This document shows, piece by piece, positions 1 to 57,303 of a stretch of DNA of 64,000 nucleotides. Location of the stretch: positions 50,726,386 to 50,790,385 of the forward strand of contig OX359248.1 of NCBI GenBank assembly GCA_947179485.1, read 5' to 3'. The notes beneath the pieces were generated by a model. It was not told where the DNA came from. It ran no database searches and was given only the letters and a program-made list of their open reading frames with translations. Position 1 is the first letter of the stretch. The number at the start of each line of letters is the position of its first letter. A program made the position numbers and the translations under genes. The stretch comes from Allacma fusca (Eukaryota; Arthropoda; Collembola; Symphypleona; Sminthuridae).

Positions 1-44
1 GGTTAACTTTCAATTGACAAGAAACACTAGTTGTTAGTCGTTAC

Positions 45-230
45 TAGGGCTTCTACTTGGGACAATGTTTTTGTCACGTCGACAATTTTGTCCCGTCCCG
101 AATTCCTCGAGACAAAAAAGTTCGACCCGATTCAGTCCCGAAATAACATGGGGACAAACATTTTGTCCCGAAACTGTCCCGATCCCGGTCCCGTCAACCT
201 CGGGACGTCCCGTCCCGAAAAGGAGCCCTA
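45..230. mobile_element. hAT-like MITE A with GTCCCG keyword repeats (186 bp)
   Basis: The ends are short inverted repeats: TAGGGCT at 45-51 matches the reverse complement of AGCCCTA at 224-230. An imperfect 8-bp target duplication flanks it, GTCGTTAC at 37-44 and GTCATTAC at 231-238 (one difference). The interior is a dense, irregularly spaced set of GTCCCG/CGGGAC words (about ten between 87 and 220). It is too short to code for anything. An 8-bp duplication with TAGGG-type ends fits the hAT superfamily. It sits inside a tandem repeat, which weakens the target-duplication evidence a little. Confidence 0.65.
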
Positions 231-238
231 GTCATTAC

Positions 239-590
239 ACTCATTGTTAGTCGTTAGAAATTCATTGTTACCCGTTAGAGACTCATTGCTAGTCGTCAGA
301 GACTCCTTGTTGCCCGTTAGATACTCATTGTTACTCGTTCGAGAGTTATCTATAGTCGTTATGGGAAATCGTAAGTCGTTAGAGAGTGATCGTTAGTCGT
401 TAGAGAGTGATCGTAAGTCGTTAGTGATCGTTAGTCGTTAGTCGTTAGTGATCGTTAGTCGTTAGTCATTAGTCGTTAGTCGTTAGTCGTTAGTCGTTAG
501 TCGTTAGTCGTTAGTCGTTAGTCGTTAGTGATCGTTAGTCGTTAGTGATCGTTAGTCGTTAGTCGTTAGTCGTTAGATTCGTGTCGTTAG
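239..590. repeat. 21-bp satellite grading into a 7-bp (TTAGTCG)n tandem repeat
   Basis: From about 239 to 420 the sequence repeats with a period near 21 (words such as ACTCATTGTTAGTCGTTAGAG). From about 420 to 590 it becomes uninterrupted or nearly uninterrupted TTAGTCG heptamers broken by TTAGTGATCG. Since 21 is three times 7, the longer unit probably grew from diverged heptamers. The same motif appears left of MITE A (31-44), so that element inserted into the array. This is not the canonical insect telomere pentamer TTAGG. Confidence 0.85.
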
Positions 591-894
591 GAATTAGGGT
601 ATGCCCAAATATAAAACAAAGCACTGAGACACCGGAATACAAAATACCAAATGTAAAATAGAATACTGAAGATTTTGAAATACTAACAATTAGTACGACT
701 AATTATAATACTATAATAAATTATTATTACAAATAAAACACGTAAAATGTTCAAGCTATTTCCAGGAATATTTCTATCTTTTGGATTGCATATTTATTGG
801 AAACACTATGATAATGAACACACTGTAAGCGGATGCTTGGTCAGGTGGATTAACGTTTTGGTCGTAATGACATAGATATAGATATACATATAAC
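591..894. other. AT-rich intergenic DNA, nothing recognised
   Basis: No reading frame, RNA gene or repeat could be supported between the satellite and MITE B. Confidence 0.5.
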
Positions 895-1418
895 CAGGGT
901 TGGTTTGGTTTAAACCAAATGATTTAAACCATGGTTTAAACCATGGTTTAAACCAAACGGTTTTTTTATAAAAACCAATGGTTTAAACCAAACACCTAAA
1001 ATTTTAATATTTTCAATCCAAAACGCTTATATTTCGTCGTGCGCAAAACTTGTGCAGTTACTGTGATATTGTGTAATTAAACTTTAGTGAAGTAAATAAT
1101 ACTATTAGCTTTTAGTCTTGTACATTTAGAAATTCGGAATCGTTTGTAAAATGAAAAATGCCAAACTTGTGTTTATGCAAAGTTATCATTAAAATTATAT
1201 CCAAATTATTAAATATTTAATGCTTTGTGATACTTACTGAGTTTGGGAAATAAGTAAATTTGTTCAAATTCACATGTTTTTTCATATGAATGAATGTTTT
1301 GCATTGAAAATTTGTTTAAACCAAAAAAACCTGGTTTAAACCAAAAAAACCCGGTTTAAACCAAAAAAACCTGGTTGTTTGGTTTTTTTGAAATAAACCA
1401 AAAAAACCCCCAACCCTG
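895..1418. mobile_element. hAT-like MITE B with GGTTTAAACC keyword repeats (524 bp)
   Basis: Terminal inverted repeats CAGGGTTGG (895-903) and CCAACCCTG (1410-1418) are flanked by a perfect 8-bp target duplication, CATATAAC, at 887-894 and 1419-1426. The palindrome GGTTTAAACC and its halves are reiterated in both subterminal zones (about 904-985 and 1312-1405), and the middle 300 bp is plain AT-rich DNA. CAGGG-type ends plus an 8-bp duplication are hallmarks of hAT transposons. There is no transposase, so it must have been moved in trans. Confidence 0.88.
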
Positions 1419-1426
1419 CATATAAC

Positions 1427-2290
1427 TATGTACATGTCGTAAAGAAACGAATGTTCAGCTGACGTTTTTGTTGCGTTATTACTTTTGACACATTCGTGAA
1501 AGTTGAGCGCAAACATGTATTTTGAACATAATTTGAGAGGATTTGAAAAGCAATAATTATTGTGATGTGCAATATGTGCATAAAAGTATCAAATGCGAAT
1601 TTAAAAATATATTATGTTCATGTTTGATCACTTTCATCGTTTCGTCTAAAAGTTCTAATTACAAAATCATGTTTCAAAGTACCAACTTCATAAACCAATA
1701 TACTGGAGGTATTTACTTCAGATCCCTATTTTCATTATATTAGGGTATTTAAAAATATTTCGGATCATTATGGACAAACACTACGCATACTCTAGAGTCG
1801 CTCAAAAATTGGTGACAGCTTGTTAGTGAATGATTCAATTATTAAGTATCCACGGCTCCTCCCATCAAAAATTGGCTCCACATACGCGCGAAATCCGTAC
1901 CGCAATGTTTTTCCATTGCGATAGAAATCTATTGATTTGGAAATTCTTTTCTAAAAATTTTGCTTAAAGGAGAAGACAGCCCACTCGTTCAAATTATATT
2001 ATGTTAATTAAGTATGTGTATTTTCCAATGACGAACCTTATGGATTTTAATGCTTGTGGTATATAATGGTCAGCTCTTTCCGTATGCCAACAAATTTGAA
2101 CAGTCTTTCCGTGTTTAGAACGCTTGTAATTATTCTGGACGCCACTCAATATTCTGTTTCCAATCTTTGATACAGGCTAATGGTACTCCGCGTTCCAACT
2201 GCTAAATTCCTACCATTACCCTAATGTTTTGTTACCATTGCACTTTGCAAGTAAATAGAAGGCTGTGCCAAGCACATACAGTCACTTTGT
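1427..2290. other. AT-rich intergenic DNA, nothing recognised
   Basis: Only short, unconvincing reading frames lie between two transposon insertions, and no repeat structure stands out. Confidence 0.5.
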
Positions 2291-2298
2291 ATTCCAAG

Positions 2299-3121
2299 TA
2301 GAGCATCTCGGGCGGTTAAAATTTACGGGTAAGCCCGCAAAAAGCCCGGCCCGCACGGGCTTCGAGCGGGTACGGGTAAAAATTATTACGTTTGACGGGT
2401 TACGGGCGGGTACGGTCTTTTCATCGCGGTTAAAAAAGACCGTGAAAGCCCGTAAAAGCCCGTGAGAAATTGCATTAGTGTGAATACAGGAGCAGCGGTT
2501 GTAAATGTACATAGACTTGAATGACTTGAACGAATTTCAGCCGTTTGCAATTTTAGCTTTCAAACAAACTAAGGCTTGGTGTACGATAGAGCGTCACCCC
2601 GTGGGATATTTTAGGCCCGTGCCCGTCTGTACGACTGTTACTAAATAACAAAGGCAGGTATGCAAGAAAAGTTTTCTTGCATACCTGCCGTTGTTATTTA
2701 TTGTTAGTAAGTTTCATTTCGCTCTTCATTACTGTGGAAAATTCCATTTAGTCTAGAAAATGAATCCTGCTAGTAGTTAAAGTATTTGTAATAAGAATCC
2801 AGAATTTAACATAAATTCAAGAACGCCACCAGAAGTGCTTACCAAAGCCAAAATAGCAGCATAAGCTTTTGTATTGCCTTCTTAATAAACAAGGTAGTTT
2901 AACGACTGTATGTAGCAGTCAAGAACACCAATATTTTAAAATACAGTTTTTCAGTATTTAAGATGTATGGTATTTGCGGGCGGGCTACGGGCTTTTTTTA
3001 ATTTTGCGGGCCGGGCCGGGTTTTTTCGATAAACATTTATTTCGGGCCGGGCGGGTACGGGTAAAACGTTACGAGCCACGGGCGGGCACGGGCATAAAAT
3101 ATCCCACGGGGTGATGCTCTA
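2299..3121. mobile_element. hAT-like MITE C with GC-rich CGGGC/GTACGGG keyword repeats (823 bp)
   Basis: Ends TAGAGCATC (2299-2307) and GATGCTCTA (3113-3121) are inverted copies, flanked by a perfect 8-bp target duplication ATTCCAAG at 2291-2298 and 3122-3129. GC-rich words (CGGGC, GTACGGG, GCCCG) fill about 2309-2462 and 2975-3090, in sharp contrast to the AT-rich surroundings. A second, internal copy of the right end occurs inverted at 2587-2625 (about 39 bp, two differences from the reverse complement of 3083-3121). The element therefore looks composite or carries a nested copy. It has no coding capacity. Confidence 0.85.
2643..2699. repeat. Near-perfect 57-bp palindrome inside MITE C
   Basis: Arms of 28 nt at 2643-2670 and 2672-2699 pair with a single mismatch around a one-base centre. 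The loop is too small for a typical microRNA precursor, so a cruciform-prone palindrome is the safer description. Confidence 0.9.
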
Positions 3122-3129
3122 ATTCCAAG

Positions 3130-5428
3130 ACAGAGATGACCAACACAGAGTCCTGTAGAGTTAAAGCAAGCACTAAATCGGACTGTCCGAACCCCTACAC
3201 TGAAATTGGTGCGTGGTGTGAATTGAGTCTGCTGGATACAGGATAATTCATGAGCCGATTTGTTTCTAGAACACTAACAGTTTTGAGGATCCTGTTACTC
3301 ATGTGGTGTTGGGTAACTTTCACGCATATGTAGGCGTAATGCGTTCATCTGAATAAACTAGTAACGATTTAGATTTGTTTATAGAACTTTGGGGTCTTTG
3401 ATAGTCAGCTGCTACACCTGATGGTTTCTTATCTTGCGGCGTGCTATTGATTATGCAACATTTTCGATTACTCGCATGGAGCCTCCGACGAGTCGCGTGG
3501 GAAATGAAATGGCCTTCCTTCAAGCCTTCAAACGATAATATAAGTTATTAACTAATCAAATTCAAATAAGCAAAGTAGTCGAATTTTTAATTTTATGTCA
3601 AAATTTATTTCGTTGTATAAAAACAATTGATCTATTCTACCGTTAGCATTTTCTTCAAAGGGTTTAACAATAATTCTCCGAAGATAACTACGGTATATTG
3701 CTTTTTGGCAAGTACTTTTGCTGTATGTCAATATTAGTATATAACTAATACTTGTCCGAGGAATGGAATTTGTTTCAATAAATTTGTGTCACCACATAGC
3801 ATATCATAAAATGGTACACAAATCCATTCTAGAATAACTTTTACAGCTCTCCAAACATTGTATATTTAATGGTAATTATTAATATCCTGAAATAAGCTCC
3901 TTTGGTGGACGTTTTAATACGCTGTTGTATTCTTTTCAATATCGAGTTTATAATTTGCTCCGACCAAATTGTCCGTTATGCTCCTAATACAGGAATGGTA
4001 TCACATGTCTGCTCCGACATTTTGGAATTGATTTATTGGTCTGACAGGAATTTGGAAGAAAGTTCAAAGCAAAAGTTTTAAATTGTTCAAACTTTTGATC
4101 CAGAACAAAATTTTGGTTTGGATTTATCTAGTAAGGGGAGGTCAAATTGTTCGACAAAGGTAGTGCGAACAATATTCCGAATTTAAAAGATCAACAATAG
4201 CAAAGAATGATGGATATAAAAATATCCTCTAATTCCTTGTTGAGCCGCGTTGCGTTGAATTCCTAAGTTACCATTTAAATTATCACCCTAACACAATTTC
4301 AACCCTGAAAGTTTATTGCAATACTGACATAAAATCACTTAGCTCAAAATCATTTTTAATGATAAAATGGGTCGCTTTAAAAAATCTTTTTCGGACTACA
4401 GTGTCATGAATCACAACTTTTCTACTTAATTTTGGTAGTTACTAGACGAACCGATCTAAGAATGTACCAGGATGAAAAAGGTATTTGGCAACATGGTGTA
4501 AACACTTTCGTTTAGAAGAAATAGATACTTTCATGTGTTTTAAATATAACTAATAGCAATTTATGCAGCATTTTAAAAAAATTGAAGCTTTATTGCAGTA
4601 TTAATAGCAAAAAAGTCAGGAAAAGGCTTATTTGATTCTTGAAAATTGAGGGGGGGGGACAGTAGTATAGCCTGTCCCTCCATGACGTATTTTGGGAGGG
4701 ACAATGTCCCCCCTTATTCGGGAGTGCCCGTTTATTTATGTATAATGTAATGTCAACTAAACAATACCGTTCTGAACATAATCATTACAGTAGTACCGTA
4801 GTACGTATTTTGCGGTGTCAGTTGTGTGATAAATTTTTGCTGAAAATTAATAAGTGTTTGTTATTGATATTGAAGTCTAATCAATTTATTTTAAAGAATT
4901 ATACACATAACTAATTATTTAATTACTCAAGAAATACTTCATAATGTTTATACTAATTGCAAAAGGATGACCACTTCCATGCCAGCAATTATTATTGGTT
5001 ATTCATATTATTTAACAAATAAGCAATTATCATGATTATGTGTCTATACACCATTAATTTTATGATACATAGGTCCGGTACAAAATGAACTTGAGTTTGT
5101 GTGCAAACGAAGATAATAATCTTATGAGTTTCAAAATTTATCACAATATAATGTCAGCATAACTTGACTTACAAAAACAAAATTGAACATGTGGTAACGT
5201 TTAATATATGGAAATCGTTTAATGTATGGAAAGCTTAGTAGAATTGAGGAACTCTTGATTTGTTAAATTATTTCTGATGTTCATACTTAGTTTGTCAATA
5301 TGTAGCATATTAAAAGGAAATACATCTTACATGTTATTTCTTAAATGTTTTCTGAGCGTATATTTTTTGCTTGTTGCGACTATTACAGTGCCGATGGTAG
5401 TTACTTTTTCTTCTGAATATTAAGGATT
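3130..5428. other. Intergenic DNA downstream of the VWA gene
   Basis: No gene is supported. At about 4650-4715 a run of G followed by CTGTCCCTCC and then GGGAGGGACA and a run of C forms nested inverted repeats, possibly the decayed end of another short element. The rest is plain AT-rich sequence. The 3' untranslated region of the minus-strand VWA gene must lie just below 5428. Confidence 0.45.
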
Positions 5429-7750
5429 TTATTGTGAAAACAAGGCAAAAGCAAAATTGACTCCAAGTACCATTAAAACGTTCCATTTAGCAAAAGCGCA
5501 TTTGCATGCACTACTGTTAAATAATCCTAGCGTAGAATCCAAGAAAGAGTTCGGTGCAGATGTTGTTGCAAATGTTGCAGATTCTATGGAAATTGTAGTA
5601 GGTGCTTCTGTGGTGGTGGAAGGTGTAGTTGTCGTTGTGGTAGTAGTACTAGTTGCTGGAGTTGTAGTTGTTGTAGTCGTTGGGGTTGGTGTTGTAGTTG
5701 TTGCAGTCGTTGGGGTTGTAGTTGTTGTAGTCGTTGGGGTTGGTGTTGTAGTTGTTGTAGTCGTTGGGGTTGGTGTTGTAGTTGTTATAGTCGTTGGGGT
5801 TGGTGTTGTAGTTGTTGTAGTCGTTGGGGTTGGTGTTGTAGTTGTTATAGTCGTTGGGGTTGGTGTTGTAGTTGTTGTAGTCGTTGGGGTTGGTGTTGTA
5901 GTTGTTGTAGTCGTTGGGGTTGGTGTTGTAGTTGTTGTAGTCGTTGGGGTTGGTGTTGTAGTTGTTGTAGTCGTCGGGGTTGGTGTTGTAGTTGTTGTAG
6001 TTGTTGTAGTCGTTGGGGTTGGTGTTGTAGTTGTTGTAGTCGTCGGGGTTGGTGTTGTAGTTGTTGTAGTTGTTGTAGTCGTTGGGGTTGGTGTTGTAGT
6101 TGTTGTAGTCGTCGGGGTTGGTGTTGTAGTTGTTGTAGTAGTGGTTGCAGTTGTTGTTGTTGGAAGTAAGTCAACTTCTTCAACAAGAATGGTGTATTTG
6201 TTGACTGGTTCCAAACCCAGAACATATATGAAAAGGAATCGTTGTAGCGAGGCGGTTGCAGTCCCATCACCAGAATTATAGAATTCATCTGGGACCTCTT
6301 CGTAGTCTTCGTAAGCCTTGTCAATATTGAATTCAGATATGATTTCATCGTCACGTCTACGTCTCACGTTGTTGTCCTGCTGCTTATATAGGTCGGGATG
6401 TTCAATGTAGTTCTCTCCATCCCAGAGCTGGTCGTCGCACCAAGCTCGGTTCAGCCCACGATTTCGCCCGTGGTAAACTTCGATGAGCCCTTGTGTCGTT
6501 TTCAAGGTAATACGAAAACTCCGAGTGACTTCACCCCACTTAAAGCGATACAGTCTATGTTCATTAAATTTCAACGTATCTCCAGTGACTTGTCCAAACG
6601 ACGGTTGCTGGGATTCACCGCAAGTTTGCTGATGTAGGTTCCGGAAGAATTGCAATAGAGCGTTGAAGTCTTGAAGACTGAATACTCGACCAGATTGCCC
6701 TTGTGCGATTTCCATTAATTCTGAATGTTTTGTGTCACGTCCAATTCCAACTGCATATGTGGTTATTCCATCAGCACGGGCTTGTTGAATAGCAGGTACA
6801 CCACCTTTGTCATGCAGTCCACCCAGATTAGATTCCCCATCAGTAAAGACTGCCAGGATTTTTGGAACACCAGATCTTGGTTTTGCGGCTTTGAATAAAT
6901 CCAGAGCAACTTTGATAGCCCCATTTGTATTTGTCGAGGTCTTTGGGTAATTTGCTCTTTGAACGTAATATTGTATTTGAAGGGCTGTATTGCCACTACC
7001 TAAAGGAAGCAGTACTTTTACACCTGTTGCGTAAACAATGAATCCCAGTCGAGTTGTTTCAATAGAATATTGTGCAAATAATTTGACCACAAAGTCCTTT
7101 GACTTTTGGAAATTTTCAGGTCCAACACTTTTCGAGCCATCCAGCACAACGACAAGGTCCATCTTTGCATTACACCTTATTTTGGCTTCTTCGAATGTTG
7201 TAACCAAATCGACGAACTCATGTCCAGTAGGTATTCGAGCATGTCTATAGTCCTTCCTTAAATTGTGTTCTCGATAATTTGCTTGTTCGGCTATGGTTTG
7301 AGGGAAACCTTTCTGCTCAGTTGACGGATCCTTCTCGAACAAGTACAAATGGAGGGCCAAAGCTGAGTAAAGTGGCTTACGTAGATCATCCCAGCTAATT
7401 TCTCCTCTCCATTTGGTTCCAAAGAGTTGGTAAATTTTTCCGTACATTGTGTCCATTGTTTTGCTTACTTTCGTGACATTAAACATTTTCTCAGTATTAT
7501 ACCAAATGCCGCCGGTGAACGTTCGAGTAGAAATTGTCTCGGTGCCGAATCGGGTATCCGCGTAAGCCAATCTTTTGAAGAATCCATAGTCTTTGCCAAA
7601 CAAAGATCCAATTTTTGCAATGACTGCATCAACTGCTTCTTCTCCATTGGCGTCATCCTCAAGAGTTTTGTCCACTACACAAAATGTTGACGGAAGTAGT
7701 GTCAAAGTCAGCACTACTGTCAATGCCTGGAGAAAACCTGAATGACCCAT
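5429..7750 (-). CDS. Secreted VWA-domain protein with threonine-rich mucin-like stalk, probable GPI anchor (intronless)
   Basis: The single exon encodes 773 residues from the ATG at 7750. Residues 1-24 form a clear signal peptide (hydrophobic LTVVLTLTLLPSTFC). The frame is open seven codons further upstream, but with no ATG. A von Willebrand factor A domain spans roughly residues 197-375. It has the MIDAS motif DGSKS (D204, S206, S208), a threonine-rich TSTNTNG loop and the downstream FTDGESN acidic site, so metal-dependent ligand binding is plausible. An uncharacterised globular segment precedes the domain. About 190 residues of Thr/Pro tandem repeat (decamers such as TPTPTTTTTT) follow, expected to carry O-glycans. 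The C-terminus ends in NSSACKC plus a short hydrophobic tail (WNVLMVLGVNFAFALF), typical of a GPI signal, although a membrane anchor is possible. An extracellular adhesion or matrix role is inferred, not shown. Absence of introns, unlike its neighbours, may reflect retroposition. Confidence 0.88.
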   Translation of the reverse strand: MGHSGFLQALTVVLTLTLLPSTFCVVDKTLEDDANGEEAVDAVIAKIGSLFGKDYGFFKRLAYADTRFGTETISTRTFTGGIWYNTEKMFNVTKVSKTMDTMYGKIYQLFGTKWRGEISWDDLRKPLYSALALHLYLFEKDPSTEQKGFPQTIAEQANYREHNLRKDYRHARIPTGHEFVDLVTTFEEAKIRCNAKMDLVVVLDGSKSVGPENFQKSKDFVVKLFAQYSIETTRLGFIVYATGVKVLLPLGSGNTALQIQYYVQRANYPKTSTNTNGAIKVALDLFKAAKPRSGVPKILAVFTDGESNLGGLHDKGGVPAIQQARADGITTYAVGIGRDTKHSELMEIAQGQSGRVFSLQDFNALLQFFRNLHQQTCGESQQPSFGQVTGDTLKFNEHRLYRFKWGEVTRSFRITLKTTQGLIEVYHGRNRGLNRAWCDDQLWDGENYIEHPDLYKQQDNNVRRRRDDEIISEFNIDKAYEDYEEVPDEFYNSGDGTATASLQRFLFIYVLGLEPVNKYTILVEEVDLLPTTTTATTTTTTTTPTPTTTTTTTPTPTTTTTTTTTTPTPTTTTTTTPTPTTTTTTTTTTPTPTTTTTTTPTPTTTTTTTPTPTTTTTTTPTPTTTTTTTPTPTTITTTTPTPTTTTTTTPTPTTITTTTPTPTTTTTTTPTPTTTTTTTPTTATTTTPTPTTTTTTTPATSTTTTTTTTPSTTTEAPTTISIESATFATTSAPNSFLDSTLGLFNSSACKCAFAKWNVLMVLGVNFAFALFSQ
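5650..6140. repeat. 30-bp coding minisatellite (Thr/Pro decamers) inside the VWA gene
   Basis: About fifteen copies of a 30-bp unit (plus-strand core GTTGTAGTTGTTGTAGTCG then TTGGGGTTGGT) with near-identical sequence. Some units are lengthened by 9 or 15 bp of extra TTG-type codons. On the coding strand each unit gives one Thr/Pro decamer. The high identity implies recent expansion or homogenisation. The repeat also creates long open frames on other frames and on the opposite strand, which are artefacts. Confidence 0.9.
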
Positions 7751-7841
7751 TATCCGAATGGTTTCAGGCAACTCACTGCTTTCTCTTATGAGGTCCTAAG
7801 TTTTAACTGGCAAGAGAATAGAATTGGGTTTTGCGTATAAT

Positions 7842-7858
7842 TATATATATATATATAT
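7842..7858. promoter_or_regulatory. TA run upstream of the VWA gene, possible TATA region
   Basis: A (TA)n stretch lies about 90-110 bp upstream of the VWA start codon on the minus strand. It could serve as a TATA-like core promoter or may just be a microsatellite. Position is the only support. Confidence 0.25.
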
Positions 7859-10433
7859 TCGTTTATTAACAACATGAAAAAAGTCATTGTTTTTCCTTGA
7901 AGCTGATTTCATCCAAGAAGGAAATTAACGGATCAATTTACTAATATTAAGCCCAAGTCTCAAGAAACTGATGATAATGAATAATCGTTTTTATTTGTAA
8001 AATTTAATGTTCAACTTGGGTTCCTCAGAGGTACGGTACAATCTAGAACTTATGAAACTGGAAACTATTGGGTTGGGTGTGCCAAATTCCTGTGATATTT
8101 GCTTTCTTGGTGTTTTTCAATTGGTGACCCTACCACATAATACAGAGAAAATTTATTTTTATTGCAATTTCTTAGGTTTTTATTGACAACTCTATTGAAC
8201 ACTGGGGCGTTCATAGAAGGGGAAGATAACATTGGTTTAAATATTTATCAACGGTGTGTTGAGTTTTATTAGGATTAGTATTTTCTTTATTATTATTAGA
8301 TTCATTAGTATTTATTTGGAGAAATTTTATGATGAATTTTGAGGTTGGAGTCATAAGAAGGTGGTTTTGGGGCTGTTCATTAGTTTAATGGGAAGGGAAC
8401 AAAGGAGTAAGTATATTGGTTCAATAGTTACCATGACCACAATTACTGCTGTTATGGTTGACCGAGCCCAGAAATAGTATTTTCAGAGCGGCATGGCATT
8501 TCATTTTTCTCTTCCTTCCTTATTTAGGTTGCTGGAAAAGGGTTAGGAATCACATCAGCCTCCTCTACATGAATGCTGAAATTGATGGTTGAATCTGTTT
8601 CAACTACCGAGATATACACATAATTAACTACTTGCTGTTTTCACCACTTGAGTTTATAGTTACCATAGCTTGTAATTTGTTGCAATGCCATTCTATATAA
8701 AAAAGAAAAATTGTTTTTTGCAAAATATATTTTTTTCTTTGGCTAAACTTCACGCTGGGATCCCCACCCTATTAAAATTATTTAACTATGAATTATAATA
8801 TTGTGTAAATACCCAATACAACAGGTGCATATACATTCTACATATTATATTGCATTTCGCGGTTCTTTTGGGAAGTTTTGCACAATACTGTGTAATTCAC
8901 GGAATATTTCTCCACTGTTGACTGGATTATCGAGACAGTTGAGCTATTCTCCCTGTTCGTTAAATTGATTTACATATTGCAGGGCCAAAATGTAAAAATT
9001 AGGTATAACATTATCCCCCTGTACCAACAATTACAACGAGCATCCAGGTTTGCCTGTGTTAAAAAGTGTAAGACTGGCCCGGGCTAAGGCCGCCTACCAG
9101 TAAATACACCACTGAAGTGTCTTTCAAAGGCTATCTGTTGAGGGTAGGGCGCACAGATTACCATATTCTCAAATCAAGACTCATAAAACAAATTCTCATT
9201 TCTAGGCAACATTTTGCATCAATGTATATTTAGCATGGTTGCGTATTCGAAAAGTTTAGCATCCGGTGTAGTCACTTATTTTAAATGATGTAGCAGTTAT
9301 CAGTGATCGTTTGTTTACAACGACATTGGTGTACATTTGAGAAAATCTTTGGTTTTAATAATTCATAACGACCAGCAGCTCACTATCTATGGTAATTTAT
9401 AATTACAAGTCAATTAGTATTTTAAATTTATTTTTGTGGGGTCCAAATCAGCAGTAAGTAAAATATACTTTTTCAGCCTTAGCTTTGCAAGGGGTAAAGT
9501 TAATGCTAAATAAAAATGAGCTTGAAACGATAAAGCCAATTCCTCTGGTGCGGATTTGGAGTCACTTGGAATTGTGTATGCTTCAAACAGACACATTTGT
9601 TTTCTTAAAGAAGTTCCGAAGTTCTGCCATCAATATTTGTGAAAACTTACAAAAACATTTTTGTCACAGCCATTAATGACTTGTTTGAAACATGAAAACA
9701 CGTTAAACTAAGTGGGAAGCAATTTGCAGTTTTTTAGTACTTGCATCTGATCCTACCGAACAGCAAAGATCTTGGGATTAGGGGAGAAGCTTCGGGTGAA
9801 AATGAAGCTAGGAAATTTTGGACTAAAGCTTCAATTTTGGTGTTGTAATAAAGTCAATGAAACAAATATAATATATCTAGTGGGAGAAGATATTCGTATA
9901 TTGTGGAGACATGAATGGAACTTGTCGAAAAGCAGATAAATATGCTTATAAGAAGATCCGAAAGTAAGCATACATAGTTTTGACCCTACCATAAGGATGG
10001 AGTATGCCCTTCAACATCCAGAAATTTTGAGACAAATTCAACTTATGACCGTTGTATCCCATATATCCAAAACAAGAATATATATAATTATTGATATTTT
10101 ATGTAATTATGTATAAGTATGATTGATTGAAACCATCTGTAAGTATACAGGAGCAAGTGGAACAATTCAAGAGTTTTTGTAAACTTGTAACGATTTGGTT
10201 TATCCATGAAAGTTATAGAAGAAATAAAGTGTATTGTATTAAAAAGTGATTACTTTATATTTTAGCAATCCCCGCTATAATAATGTGTGATAGAAATATA
10301 TACTACGGAAACAAAATTGTTATATACATAGAAACTTGTATAGGTATATGACTTTACTGATGAACAGAAGGAGTCATTGTACTCAGTATTCTATTTTAGA
10401 TATTCACATAATATTGTTTATGTATAAATTTAG
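7859..10433. other. Intergenic DNA, nothing recognised
   Basis: No coding frame of convincing length or composition. A GC-rich patch at about 9070-9103 (CTGGCCCGGGCTAAGGCCGCC, then CCAGT) resembles the terminal part of a decayed short element but lacks a partner end. Confidence 0.45.
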
Positions 10434-10709
10434 TTATTCTTTCAAATTTCTATTATTTCTCAATAATTTTCCTCTAGGGTATACGTCAAGAATATGTTCC
10501 AAGATTTCAACCGCAATGCAATGACGGCAACGGATATTTTCTTGACTAGACACAGGATTTGATCTACTCGGTAGAAAATTTGCAGTCATTTTAATTGCGT
10601 TTACCCAGTCAGATGCTGATATTCCAGATTTTTGTGAAATCCGTTTATTTGTAATGGAACACTTAATTACAACATCATTTGTGATGCTGTGTCTATTATA
10701 TCGCACCAT
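10434..10709 (-). pseudogene. Fragment of a non-LTR retrotransposon reverse transcriptase (C-terminal part)
   Basis: The 91-codon frame contains SDWVNAIKMTANFLPSR followed by IRCRHC, VEILEHILDVYP and LLRNNRNL. This order (W-x-x-AIK-x-x-x-N-x-LP-x-R, then C-x-x-C, then ET/EI-L-x-HIL and RxxR) is typical of the thumb and zinc-knuckle end of R2-type and related non-LTR retrotransposon polymerases. The catalytic palm is absent. A different frame just upstream on the same strand (about 10710-10790) may be a frameshifted continuation. The piece is a relic with no intact element around it. The family is judged from motif memory, not from an alignment. Confidence 0.5.
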
Positions 10710-10724
10710 TTTTCATATTTAATT

Positions 10725-11297
10725 GTTCTAATTCATTCCTAATCAGTTTGCATTCTTGATCAATTTCTTCCTTTTTTGCTGAGAGTTTGTATTAAATAAT
10801 GTAATCGAGTCTGATTCTTGAAATGTACGCAAGGCGTGGTCGTTTGCTTAGCTATTTTTGAATATTAACTGAAGTTTAATTTTGAAAGAAAATATTGCTG
10901 TTCTTGAGGAAAATTTCTTACAGTATTTTACCACGTTTTTGGTAAATGATCGCTGGCATTAAATGATTGAATATGTTCTTCCCAAATGGTTTTATCAGTC
11001 CAAGTCCTGTTACTTTTTTTGGAATAAACCATAAAATCTCGTCTTATCCCTTCCCAACCAAGTCAATGCAGCTCTGTTGTATGGCTGCATTGTGCTGCGC
11101 CGCACTGTGTTCTCGTAAATTCGTACCCCAGAACCAATACCGGGCATTTGTTGGAGGCATAACAGGGAAAACAGGAACATGTATGTATGTGGCAGCACCA
11201 CATATTAGAAACGTTGAAGTTTTCTTACCCGAAGTATTATGGCTACGAATTAAAAGCTTCAGTTTATGACTAGAGAAGGTTTTGGAAAATTCCAATG
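10725..11297. other. Intergenic DNA, nothing recognised
   Basis: Short frames on both strands have no recognisable composition or motif. No repeats noted. Confidence 0.4.
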
Positions 11298-11306
11298 TGT
11301 GAGTAG

Positions 11307-11773
11307 TAGTGATGCCAATGGTCTGGTCTGATCCAGATTTTATGAAACTGGTCTGGTCCAAAGCGCAGACCAGACCATTGGTCTGGTCCAGTTTTTCGGA
11401 CCAGACCAGTGGTCTGATCCAGTCATTCGGACCAGACCAGACCAAAGACCATGGTCCGGACCATGGTCCAGAAAACCATTCAGAGCAATTGAATAATCAC
11501 ATTTTATCCAGTCAAATTTTTTTTTATCCTCAGAAATGACATTTTTAATTTGTTCCACAGGATTTCGTTAACTCATAAATTTTTATTTTGCGTACTTTTG
11601 GGACCATGGTCCTGTGGTCTGGTCTGGTCTGGTCCTGAAGCTGGACCAATTGTATCTGGTCTGGTCCAAGTGTTAGACCAGACCGGACCAGACCATACAA
11701 GTCTAGGACCAGACCGGACCAGACCAATAACGGACCATTATTAATGGTCCGGACCAGACCATTGGCATCCCTA
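11307..11773. mobile_element. hAT-like MITE D with GGTCTGGTCC keyword repeats (467 bp)
   Basis: Terminal inverted repeats of 22 bp with one mismatch: TAGTGATGCCAATGG... at 11307-11328 and its complement ending at 11773. A perfect 8-bp target duplication GTGAGTAG flanks it at 11299-11306 and 11774-11781. Both subterminal zones (11319-11472 and 11604-11762) are built from GGTCTGGTCC, CCAGACCA and GGTCCGGACC words in both orientations, making many small palindromes. The centre is AT-rich. TAG-type ends with GATGCCAA next to an 8-bp duplication match hAT elements. Open frames inside are products of the repeat. Confidence 0.9.
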
Positions 11774-12025
11774 GTGAGTAGGTTAAATATTTCTCTGTTA
11801 TTCCTACGGGGGCAAATAATTCATGTTAACAAAGACGTTCATATAATCCTAGTTTAATAGAGAACACGATAAAAATGTTCAGAATAATCCTGTCAGTAGG
11901 TGCAAATTACAAGTTAAATAATTTAATTTATAACTTTTGCTACAATGTTGCCCTACTCTTTGTAGTCAGCTTCCTCTACGCATAGGTATATGAAAATTCA
12001 TACACCTATTCATAGGTGTTCATGA

Positions 12026-12511
12026 TAGTGGTCGGACCAGTTCAGTTTGGTTCGCAAAATTCAGTTTAGTTCGGTTCACAAAGTAAACTGAATCGAAAAT
12101 CAAAATTTCAGTTCAGTTAGCTATTCTTCGGTTCAGTTCAGTCCAGTTTCCTCTGTGAACTGAACTGAACTGATTCCAAAACAGTTCAACGCACCAGGTT
12201 AAAACTATAACGTAAATAGTTTCCGTTTTGGTAAGTACAATATATATAATATATGTTTGTACATACATATAAGATATGTTCTTATATATGTATAAATATA
12301 TAGCACGGCAAATGCAACCGTCAAAAATGAGAAGTGCGTCATGACAGAAACAGGCTTTATTGTGCATGCATAAAAATCAGTTCAAACAATTCAGTTCAGT
12401 TCAGTTTGACGCTGAAACCGAACCATTCAGTTTGGTTTGTGTATCGAACTGAACCAAAATTTGTATGAACCAAACTGAACTGAACTGAACTGAACTGAAC
12501 TGAAATTTTCA
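12026..12511. mobile_element. hAT-like MITE E with TTCAG/CTGAA keyword repeats (486 bp)
   Basis: A perfect 8-bp duplication GTTCATGA lies at 12018-12025 and 12512-12519. The enclosed DNA begins TAGTGGTCGGACCAG and ends in ATTTTCA, so the extreme ends are not good inverted repeats. Just inside, TTCAGTTCAG words on the left (12039-12190, mixed orientation) mirror GAACTGAACTGAA words on the right (12378-12505). The (TTCAG)n/(CTGAA)n arrays pair with each other. There is no coding capacity. I assign it to the same class as the other elements because of the duplication and keyword architecture, with less certainty about the termini. Confidence 0.72.
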
Positions 12512-12519
12512 GTTCATGA

Positions 12520-13745: not shown

Positions 13746-14087
13746 ATATCGTCGCTGAAGAGGCAAAATGGAATACATGCATTTTGGATTAAAATCAAAA
13801 TGGTCTACATGCAGTTTTACTAAATGCAAAATGGAATAGATGCATCAAGTTTTAAAAGCAAAATGGAATAAGTGCAATTTCGTCTAAAAGCAAAATGGTC
13901 TACATACATTATGAAAGTATACACGCATGTAGACCATTTTGCTTTTAGTGAAAACTGCATGTAGTTCATTTTGCTTTCAGGAAAGCTTGCAACTATTCCG
14001 TTTTGCCTTTAAGGAAAAAGGCATGTAGACCATTTTGCTTCTATTCGAAATTGCACTTAGTCCATTTTGCCTCTTCAGCGACGATAT
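13746..14087. mobile_element. Inverted 5+5 array of about 33-bp units with 27-bp perfect terminal repeats
   Basis: The perfect 27-bp inverted termini are at 13746-13772 and 14061-14087 (ATATCGTCGCTGAAGAGG...). Between them, five units containing CAAAATGG followed by a TNTACATGCA-like word run forward (starting near 13763, 13796, 13824, 13857 and 13889). Five units with CCATTTTG run in reverse (near 13926, 13961, 13994, 14028 and 14061; one reads CCGTTTTG and one TCATTTTG). The element is therefore one long imperfect hairpin of about 340 bp. The target duplication cannot be fixed because ATAT is itself palindromic; TA or ATAT are both possible. It is a foldback/MITE-type element of unknown superfamily. 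Confidence 0.82.
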
Positions 14088-55321: not shown

Positions 55322-56162
55322 TTTCATCGCCAGAAATTCCTAATTCTGTTTTATACTTTACTCTAAATATTATTATCTTGTCAAGTAAACGTTTAGAATG
55401 TTATATCTTTTGTTGATCTACATTTCGTGATTAATGTAAAAATCCACAAAGATTGTTTATTAAATACACGCATAGCGTACTATTCGCACTACCTCAAAAC
55501 TGTGTAGCATCATTGAAGTAGCCTCTATTTTTATTTACACACATAAAGTTTCAAGTTATTATTATATCACAGGATGTGGCAACTGGCAACATCCTTAGCC
55601 GGTGGCCATATGTATATTAAACAATAACTTCATACCAACAAACATTATTATTGTTTATTGAACGAAAGGAGGGGAACGCTCACATTACAATAATTATTAG
55701 AAATCAGTAATTTGTTTATTTTTGCCATGGTGATAAAAATTCATTACGTATTATCATCTGTACAAAGTAAACTAGTAATTATTATTATTAACACCAGCAA
55801 CGTTTACTGTCTTGTTCAAATTTTACATCCAGTGAATCAATCATCCTCATAAGATTACTTTTATTCCCTCAGTCCCGATTCGAATCTCATACTGGTAAGA
55901 CGTACCAGTAATTTCTCAAAATTTGCCGTAAAATTTCAAAATTACTTTTCCATTTCTCCTTCCCTTCTTCACGTCATCATCCAACCGACGCGACCATTCA
56001 TCGTCCCAAAAGGGTGTTTTTAGCTTACATTTGTGCATAATTTCAGCAATTACACGTAAGGAAAACATTTCAGTTGTTAGGTTGCTTTCAAGGGATTTGA
56101 TTGGCAAGAAGTAGATATCAACAGAGGCGTATCTACATTATTCCGATTGCGATTTAATAACC
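55322..56162. other. Intergenic DNA between FGD and the Gln/Gly/Met-rich gene
   Basis: This holds the FGD 3' end and the upstream region of the next gene. A 63-codon minus-strand frame (55916-56107, with WDDEWSRRLDDDVKKGRRNGK) has a charged composition but no known motif. It could be a tiny divergent gene, though I do not call it. Confidence 0.4.
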
Positions 56163-56675
56163 ATGCCAACTATGTTCTCACAGGTTTTCAGCATGGCTTT
56201 CGATTACAGCCAGAATTTCGGACAGGGTCAACAAAACTGTAGCTTCCAACAAACTCCACAAATGTCTGGACAATCTGGGTGTCCAAATTTCACCAATGCA
56301 CTATCAAGTGGGTTTTTCAACCACGCCGGATTCCAGCAACAGTTCTCAAGCATTCATCCGAACCCACAGTGGTGTGGGAGCAGTCCTACCATGCCTCAGG
56401 GGGCCCCTCCAACGCCAACACACTGCCAAACCCTTGACTGGGCACCTGCTCTTGAAAAAAGTGGGTTGCAAGCATCCATTATACCTTCACAAATGGGTCA
56501 AAATGGCGGAGACGCTCAGTTCGGCTCACCAATGGGAATGGATGCCCAGAGCGGAGGTATAAAGGTTCTGTCAGTTACTCCTACAGGAGGTATGGGAATG
56601 GGAGGCAATCAGGCCATGGGAGGCATGGGTTCTGGCCAGGGTCAATGGATGGGAAATATGGGACGTAATTACTAG
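56163..56675 (+). CDS. Small Gln/Gly/Met-rich low-complexity protein (170 aa, intronless), unrecognised
   Basis: A single open frame from the ATG at 56163 encodes 170 residues. No family is recognised. The first part is rich in Gln, Phe, Asn and Ser (FGQGQQNCSFQQ, FFNHAGFQQQF) with five cysteines, and the last 35 residues are Gly/Met repeats (GGMGMGGNQAMGGMG) ending WMGNMGRNY. There is no signal peptide or membrane segment. Such composition is seen in prion-like or phase-separating RNA-associated proteins, but that is a guess. Support for a real gene: codon-like composition over the whole length, an AATAAA at 56814-56819 on the same strand, and its isolation between two plus-strand genes. A less likely reading is an exon of the following gene. 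Confidence 0.55.
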   Translation: MPTMFSQVFSMAFDYSQNFGQGQQNCSFQQTPQMSGQSGCPNFTNALSSGFFNHAGFQQQFSSIHPNPQWCGSSPTMPQGAPPTPTHCQTLDWAPALEKSGLQASIIPSQMGQNGGDAQFGSPMGMDAQSGGIKVLSVTPTGGMGMGGNQAMGGMGSGQGQWMGNMGRNY

Positions 56676-56813
56676 AAATACTTAGCTACATACCTGTAGA
56701 TATGTGCTAGCCTATCTACTAATTTGAAACCATCTTCAAAAATAAGTATCTCTAACTCGAACGTCTAAAAATTTACCCAATACAAATATAACTATACTTA
56801 TATTATTCCCAAA

Positions 56814-56819
56814 AATAAA
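56814..56819 (+). other. AATAAA polyadenylation signal after the Gln/Gly/Met-rich gene
   Basis: Canonical hexamer about 139 bp past the stop codon. Confidence 0.55.
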
Positions 56820-57303
56820 GTCTTCCATGACAATCAATCTACCACAACATTCCTGCATTTCTCAGTTCTTGTTTCACTACAGCACCATGCCTCTGGGTGT
56901 TAAATTTTCTAAAGGTATGGGTTATGTGTACCATATAATCTCGTGTTTGCAAAACCCAATTGGGTAATTGGGTTACTAGCATTTTAATGTGAAACATTGC
57001 ACCTCATTACACCGTAAATACTTACTCCAGGAATAACAGCCAAATATTAAACAAAACTGTACTCCCCATTTAAGCAAAAAGTTTATTTGCCTTGTAAAAA
57101 CCGAGTAACAGCATTATAATTTAAGTAATTGTACCAGTAAGTCTCCCGTTCCAATCCAACACGACAAATGGAGAGGTGGTGAGAATAATAAAACGATTTA
57201 AGTTAGTACTCACGGTCGTAGTCAAGTTTAGGTTCCGTATAGTTCTGCTCTTCTGCACATTATTTCAAACTTTGGTCCAAGTCGAAATTCCACAGATTAC
57301 AAA
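56820..57303. other. Short intergenic interval upstream of the ZNFX1-like gene
   Basis: It should contain the ZNFX1-like promoter. No helicase-like coding sequence is visible. A stop codon in frame with the ATG at 57304 lies at about 57229. Confidence 0.45.

Follow-up and report, generated by a model that had tools for sequence, protein, structure and literature searches.

The window analysed here is a 64-kb stretch of chromosome 4 of the springtail Allacma fusca (G000:C12:50726386-50790385). Five short elements, denoted E1 to E5, lie within its first 12.5 kb, each packed with its own short word, and the question raised by this locus is what these elements are and what the words are for. The original prediction, made from the letters of the window, held that the five elements share one plan, with 8-bp target duplications, short ends and a reiterated word next to the ends, and that each word is the binding site of a different hAT transposase. 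Comparison with the genome (392,743,791 bases in 91 contigs; the published assembly is reported to be slightly larger, at 392,786,974 bp in 95 scaffolds (PMC10427803)) indicates that E1-E5 are probably hAT miniature inverted-repeat transposable elements (MITEs) that are moved in trans, with the words as putative sites of the BED-type finger of the transposase. The elements and their duplications are the following, in window positions and with no strand assigned.

37-44 and 231-238: duplications of E1, GTCGTTAC/GTCATTAC, 7/8 match.
45..230: E1, a 186-bp hAT-like MITE with the ends TAGGGCTTC/TAGGGCTCC and the word GTCCCG/CGGGAC.
887-894 and 1419-1426: duplications of E2, CATATAAC, perfect.
895..1418: E2, a 524-bp hAT-like MITE with the ends CAGGGTTGG and the word GGTTTAAACC.
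2291-2298 and 3122-3129: duplications of E3, ATTCCAAG, perfect.
2299..3121: E3, an 823-bp hAT-like MITE with the ends TAGAGCATC and the words CGGGC and GTACGGG.
11299-11306 and 11774-11781: duplications of E4, GTGAGTAG, perfect.
11307..11773: E4, a 467-bp hAT-like MITE with the ends TAGNGATGCCAATGGTCTGG and the word GGTCTGGTCC.
12018-12025 and 12512-12519: duplications of E5, GTTCATGA, perfect.
12026..12511: E5, a hAT-like MITE with the left end TAGTGGTCGGACCAGTTCAG, the word TTCAG/AACTGA and the right 28 bp deleted.

The common plan of the five elements, with ends and duplications at these coordinates, was confirmed, as was the claim that four of the five duplications are perfect (E2-E5). The search of the genome with each element, proposed together with the prediction, recovered five dispersed families, for each of which the best 40 candidates were scored (out of 1094 for E1, 586 for E2, 888 for E3, 1300 for E4 and 404 for E5). 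Among the 107 copies extracted for the duplication check, with the window's own left out, the 8-bp duplications are perfect in 81 and contain at most one mismatch in 96. The presence of copies with different flanks and their own duplications throughout the genome rules out a local satellite or tandem origin of E1-E5. The consensus of the perfect duplications (the 81 perfect ones, with repeats within a family counted once and four from the window added; n=81) has T at position 2 in 57 cases, A at position 7 in 67 and both in 47, and the preference for A at position 7 is present separately in all five families; TA at positions 4-5 is found in merely 6 of the 81. Given that Hermes is reported to prefer nTnnnnAn targets (PMC10368747) and that the reported Buster duplications follow nnnTAnnn (PMC3517528), E1-E5 display the Hermes/Ac-type target choice rather than that of Buster. 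The ends are all of the YAG type (TAGGG, CAGGG, TAGAG, TAGNG and TAGTG, the right end of E5 being taken from other copies). The elements are short (186-823 bp), present in high copy number and devoid of a transposase gene; the sole stop-to-stop frame of at least 120 aa that overlaps any of them, a 150-aa one at 11044-11496, covers part of E4. The assignment of E1-E5 to the hAT superfamily is thus well supported, and they are new families of an already known kind of element. These springtail elements were not met among the titles and abstract openings listed from the open-licence literature, from which it does not follow that they are unpublished.

Other superfamilies also produce 8-bp duplications, in particular P/Galileo elements, the long repeats of which are reported to carry multiple THAP sites (PMC3688188), and no transposase has been linked to E1-E5. 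Nevertheless, the YAG-type ends and the nTnnnnAn duplications fit Hermes/Ac-type hAT elements, and the genome is rich in hAT domains, no search aimed at P-type transposases having been made; such an affiliation appears very improbable.

The scored E1 copies are 86-100% identical to the query. Near-identical 20-bp flanks are common to the window E1 and 9 of the 20 extracted copies (L091-L099), which places the window copy inside a larger repeat that is itself dispersed; the other 11 copies, with flanks of their own, include 6 with perfect duplications and 10 with at most one mismatch. The dispersed repeat around E1 (window 1-626) includes one further feature, and may end near 626 at CAGTGCT (minus strand), in which case its other end would fall outside the window.

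239..576: tandem array of TCGTTAG on one strand, adjoining E1 and belonging to the dispersed repeat that holds it (Tandem Repeats Finder, TRF).

All 40 scored E2 copies are 96-100% identical, all 10 extracted copies have perfect duplications, and the exact 22-bp left end occurs 349 times in the genome. For E3, identity is 94-96% apart from the self-match, duplications are perfect in 22 of the 29 extracted copies, and there are 321 exact 20-bp left ends. This element may be composite, since its right end recurs internally in inverted orientation and the stretch at about 2638-2700 is a near-perfect palindrome.

2587..2625, minus strand: inverted second copy of the E3 right end, inside E3 (element positions 289-327 versus 785-823; 95% in the window copy).

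The E4 family is the most uniform, with 97-100% identity, perfect duplications in 19/19 extracted copies and 799 exact ends (both ends counted). Twelve of these 19 copies, which are the best-scoring matches, are identical to the window E4; three of the 12 are parts of one local tandem (one duplication, equal spacing). Identity at 11 independent sites, the window included, suggests that E4 moved recently. Regularly spaced E4-bearing units, with periods of about 5.75 kb (G000:C1:14677396-14700803) and 6.65 kb (G000:C8:61068492-61082264), represent local tandem duplications carrying E4. Finally, the E5 copies are 87-100% identical, some of them not full length; the 29 extracted ones span 484-541 bp and 22 of these have perfect duplications, and 153 exact 22-bp ends are found (both ends counted). 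Reversed control patterns for the exact-end counts of E2-E5 gave zero matches. The weak ends ascribed to E5 are a property of the window copy and not of the family: in the family consensus, the right end CTGAACTGGTCCGACCACTA mirrors the left end as a perfect 20-bp inverted repeat, whereas 28 bp are missing from the right end of the window copy, the duplication of which is intact (a 4-base microhomology leaves the position of the breakpoint ambiguous), so that the weak end is damage rather than design. Pairs of E5 ends 888-1947 bp apart also occur in the genome.

The words are the most conspicuous feature of these elements, and a chance origin is ruled out by shuffling: the count of the commonest 6-mer in the ends of each element was reached by none of 300 dinucleotide shuffles, and for whole elements, with overlaps counted, the top word was reached in 6/300 shuffles for E3 and in 0/300 for each of the others. 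Within the window, the density per kb is 48.4 inside E1 and 0.25 outside for GTCCCG, 11.5 inside E2 and 0 outside for GGTTTAAACC, which is its own complement, 24.3 inside E3 and 0.31 outside for CGGGC, 34.3 inside its element and 0.14 outside for GGTCTGG, and 43.2 inside E5 and 2.58 outside for TTCAG. The words are present in both orientations and in both ends, and arrays of the E1-E5 words beyond the element borders, which the original prediction had named as fatal to it, were not detected in the 64-kb window. When word arrays were defined as at least 5 non-overlapping copies of one 7-mer within 200 bp, on both strands, the window contained E1-E5 and a single other stretch, at about 13.75-14.09 kb. 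The latter is a 336-bp inverted repeat (13749-14084) with CAAAATG on both strands, 32-bp periods and TA on both sides, and looks like a TA-target miniature element.

Elements of this kind are not confined to the five families. In a sample of 154 flanks of 1480 bp each (228 kb) beside E3, E4 and E5 copies, which is biased to element-rich DNA, both-strand 7-mer arrays were found in 44 flanks, compared to 0/154 after one dinucleotide shuffle per flank. The clustering in 12.5 kb singled out in the original prediction is thus real in that the five elements are there, but not special. Just 2 of the 44 array flanks are similar to E1-E5; grouping by similarity yields 29 clusters, a number inflated in at least one instance, where the two ends of one element were separated. 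In a search for duplications together with terminal inverted repeats (TIRs), 18 rows from the flanks combined TIR-like ends with a perfect 8-bp repeat, and 7 of these were taken as hAT-like word elements. Applied to the window, this search recovered E2, E3 and E4, along with a row lying within E4 and another (55910-57130) that is probably due to chance. When a similar search was run on reversed sequence as a control, on the flanks only, it gave 8 rows versus 20, and 1 versus 10 with a perfect duplication. Among the remaining flank rows, L028, tested as an eighth candidate, has no word (its count was reached by 283/300 shuffles), and L003, L015 (twice), L030, L031, L037 (twice), L057 (twice) and L073 were not retained, having been judged by eye to be short, low in complexity, internal to an array or poor in words. 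The top word beats all 300 shuffles in 12 of the 13 candidate elements tested. Six further families emerge in which the 8-bp duplications are perfect and both TIRs and a word are present; their words are given below, and L008 ends in CAAAGG rather than YAG.

L060: AATTGC.
L070: TCGGAA.
L065: ACCGTA.
L012 and L010: ACGATA.
L010: AAATGC.
L008: CCTACA.

A separate class is defined by the end CAGTGCT. This heptamer is found 48 times in the window and L001-L080 combined, and in 19 cases is followed by a 6-mer occurring at least 4 times within 130 bp. Families with this same end carry different words (GGGTAC, ACTTGA, CTAGTC/CTATTC, ACGAGA and CTGCAA; the ACGAGA and CTGCAA rows are represented by one end each). 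The only member of the class seen with both ends is the CAGTGCTCGG element at L035 811-3338, which is flanked by the duplication GTTTCAGG on both sides and split by a nested E3 copy. In a table of 16 families against their words, the pattern is nearly diagonal: the own top three words reach 4.8-13.8 per 100 bp, compared to at most 2.5 elsewhere, with the exception of one pair. For the five CAGTGCT rows the difference is built in because they were picked one per word, whereas E1-E5 and the six further families were selected without regard to word difference. The exceptional pair consists of E3 and the CAGTGCTCGG family, which have words in common (5.0 and 3.8 per 100 bp) despite different ends. 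Thus, the claim that each element has its own word held for the ends of E1-E5 as family-specific words, but one word per family is not a strict rule.

Transposases of the hAT superfamily work with their core on the short TIR and with an N-terminal BED finger on nearby repeats. Under the interpretation that we consider probable, E1-E5 would be miniature hAT elements mobilised in trans by transposases encoded elsewhere, with the Hermes/Ac-type target choice (nTnnnnAn). The transposase core would work at the short terminal repeat, and the word, present in both orientations just inside the ends, would be the most likely docking site of the N-terminal BED-type finger. Multiple sites per end could enable a multimeric transposase to capture its own element among many rival families, and such capture would give an advantage to dense arrays and to words private to each family. 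On the simplest reading, each word is a candidate site of the finger of its own transposase; the binding of the words, the BED finger as their reader, the competition and the pairing of transposases with families are what we infer from the DNA. There are precedents for parts of this scheme: the Ac transposase is reported to bind the repeated AAACGG (PMC3260210), several BED domains of Hermes engage repeats at the left end (PMC10368747), and for all four hAT-encoded proteins reported in one study the bound motif matched subterminal DNA (PMC8097297). Furthermore, hAT-derived BED-type DNA-binding proteins are described as domesticated many times, with diverse motifs (PMC8097297).

The words might instead serve folding, with single-strand hairpins maintained for their own sake and not for protein binding. 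The folding of E2-E4 as single strands is indeed far stronger than that of dinucleotide shuffles (z -12.8 for E4 and -7.3 for E2, with 100 shuffles each, and -8.3 for E3, with 20). These scores, however, follow from the arrays themselves because good folding is expected of any array that has one word on both strands, and a structural need would not require a different word in each family. Cut-and-paste movement of hAT elements uses double-stranded DNA, and this explanation accordingly seems very improbable.

An alternative that deserves more weight, even if it is unlikely, accepts that these are hAT MITEs but holds that the words grew by slippage or internal duplication and are passively carried, the true site being another short motif. 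Many of the words are 5-6 bp tandem units, short tandem runs are present (e.g., AACTG x6.4 in E5, by TRF), and the word counts differ between E5 copies (17-24). There is also the precedent of Hermes, where the conspicuous repeat GTGGC looked like the site and is reported not to be the BED site, which is AAGT (PMC10368747). Passive growth fits less well with words that are dense, occur in both orientations and at both ends, and form arrays that stop at the element borders, or with the match between the motifs of the four hAT-encoded proteins and subterminal DNA (PMC8097297). The pattern of variation also bears on this choice. If the words matter for movement, inherited variants should avoid them, and no such avoidance is expected of private mutations that arose once a copy had inserted. 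The counts exclude CpG sites, the terminal 12 bp and the nine E1 copies with shared flanks, and use hand-chosen word sets; shared and singleton variants, which are not fully independent, number 10 and 77 in words, 36 and 113 in spacers, and 97 and 148 in cores. Shared variants are depleted in words compared to cores (P=5e-7) and to spacers (P=0.018), and a control that rotates the word mask gives P=0.019; singletons in words number 77, compared to 77.3 expected by rotation. Multi-copy, inherited variants thus avoid the words and singletons do not, which argues against passive carriage and lends modest support to selection on the words, the effect itself being modest.

Several observations weigh against the proposal that the words are the sites of the transposase finger. 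The P value for words versus spacers stays below 0.05 on leaving out any one family except E1, without which P=0.13, and the spacers are also depleted of shared variants compared to the cores (P=0.002), so that part of the signal belongs to the whole end region, all of which may be constrained. Reading specificity from MITEs also needs care, since the GTGGC repeat of Hermes proved not to be the BED site (PMC10368747). Elements other than hAT may also be packed with words, considering the TA-flanked repeat at 13749-14084 and the lack of a verified duplication at most of the 44 flank arrays.

On the transposase side, and in favour of the proposal, the genome contains at least 150 hAT dimerisation domains (all of the best 150 of 860 candidates exceed the cut-off) and at least 35 BED finger matches (best 150 of 327 candidates scored), 14 of the 35 being within 5 kb of a hAT match on the same strand among the hAT matches listed (counted by eye). 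The original prediction had called for autonomous hAT copies with the same ends. For this comparison, 100 of the 349 E2 ends, 99 of the 321 E3 ends, 100 of the 799 E4 ends (on C1 up to 32.2 Mb) and 100 of the 153 E5 ends were set against the hAT and BED matches on C1, C5, C8 and C9. Among the matches listed, 0/399 ends face outward at 6 kb or less from a hAT or BED domain, a result that speaks against the proposal but carries little weight as a sign of absence. Two ends, one of E2 and one of E3, come within 10 kb of such a match, both in the wrong orientation, and the coordinates of ends and domains accordingly reveal no autonomous partner for E2-E5. In the 3' flanks of two BED-hAT transposases (600 bp each) an element end could not be recognised; a clear word array is absent from one flank, and the other has GTACTAC x8 inside a 92-bp tandem. 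At G000:C1:23453303-23460131, exact E4 ends face each other at a distance of 6.8 kb, which would suit a long relative, with no hAT domain within 10 kb among the matches listed.

Elsewhere in the window, a 788-aa stop-to-stop frame (5429-7795, minus strand) encodes a von Willebrand factor A domain, with a long tandem array rich in threonine nearer the C-terminus.

The closest parallels to E1-E5 are found among well-studied hAT systems. Maize Ac/Ds shares the 8-bp duplications, the short TIR, a repeated word near the ends (AAACGG in Ac) and short non-autonomous members such as Ds1, of about 400 bp (PMC3260210); it differs in being one well-studied plant family with its word, whereas here a number of families with different words, known from DNA alone, coexist in one animal genome. 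Hermes of the house fly resembles E1-E5 in the nTnnnnAn target and in the repeats just inside the TIR, which in Hermes are bound by BED domains (PMC10368747), but its site, AAGT, is short and is not the repeat first proposed, and the springtail words are longer and denser. The Mar MITEs of Drosophila, which belong to the Buster branch of hAT, are likewise a short MITE family with 8-bp duplications, but these are nnnTAnnn as opposed to nTnnnnAn, and the available text on Mar mentions no word arrays (PMC3517528). The hAT-derived CGG-binding proteins and the hAT proteins tested on arrays show diverse motifs, four of which match subterminal DNA (PMC8097297); the array-tested proteins are known from the protein side, whereas E1-E5 are known from the DNA side.

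Altogether, what makes these families interesting is how many private words occur in a single genome, together with a hint that the ends vary separately from the words. A tentative extension, which we regard as possible rather than likely, is that the genome contains dozens of hAT MITE families, each with its own amplified binding word, and that this lexicon would allow many BED specificities to be decoded; ends and words would then be modular, with the specificity of the finger evolving apart from the catalytic core through competition among families. The practical use is limited for now as it depends on the link between word and transposase. Many families, each advertising a dense word, would nevertheless provide predictions of which word each BED domain of the hAT transposases of this genome binds, and may bear on the ways in which transposon families that share a genome escape, or make use of, the enzymes of other families.

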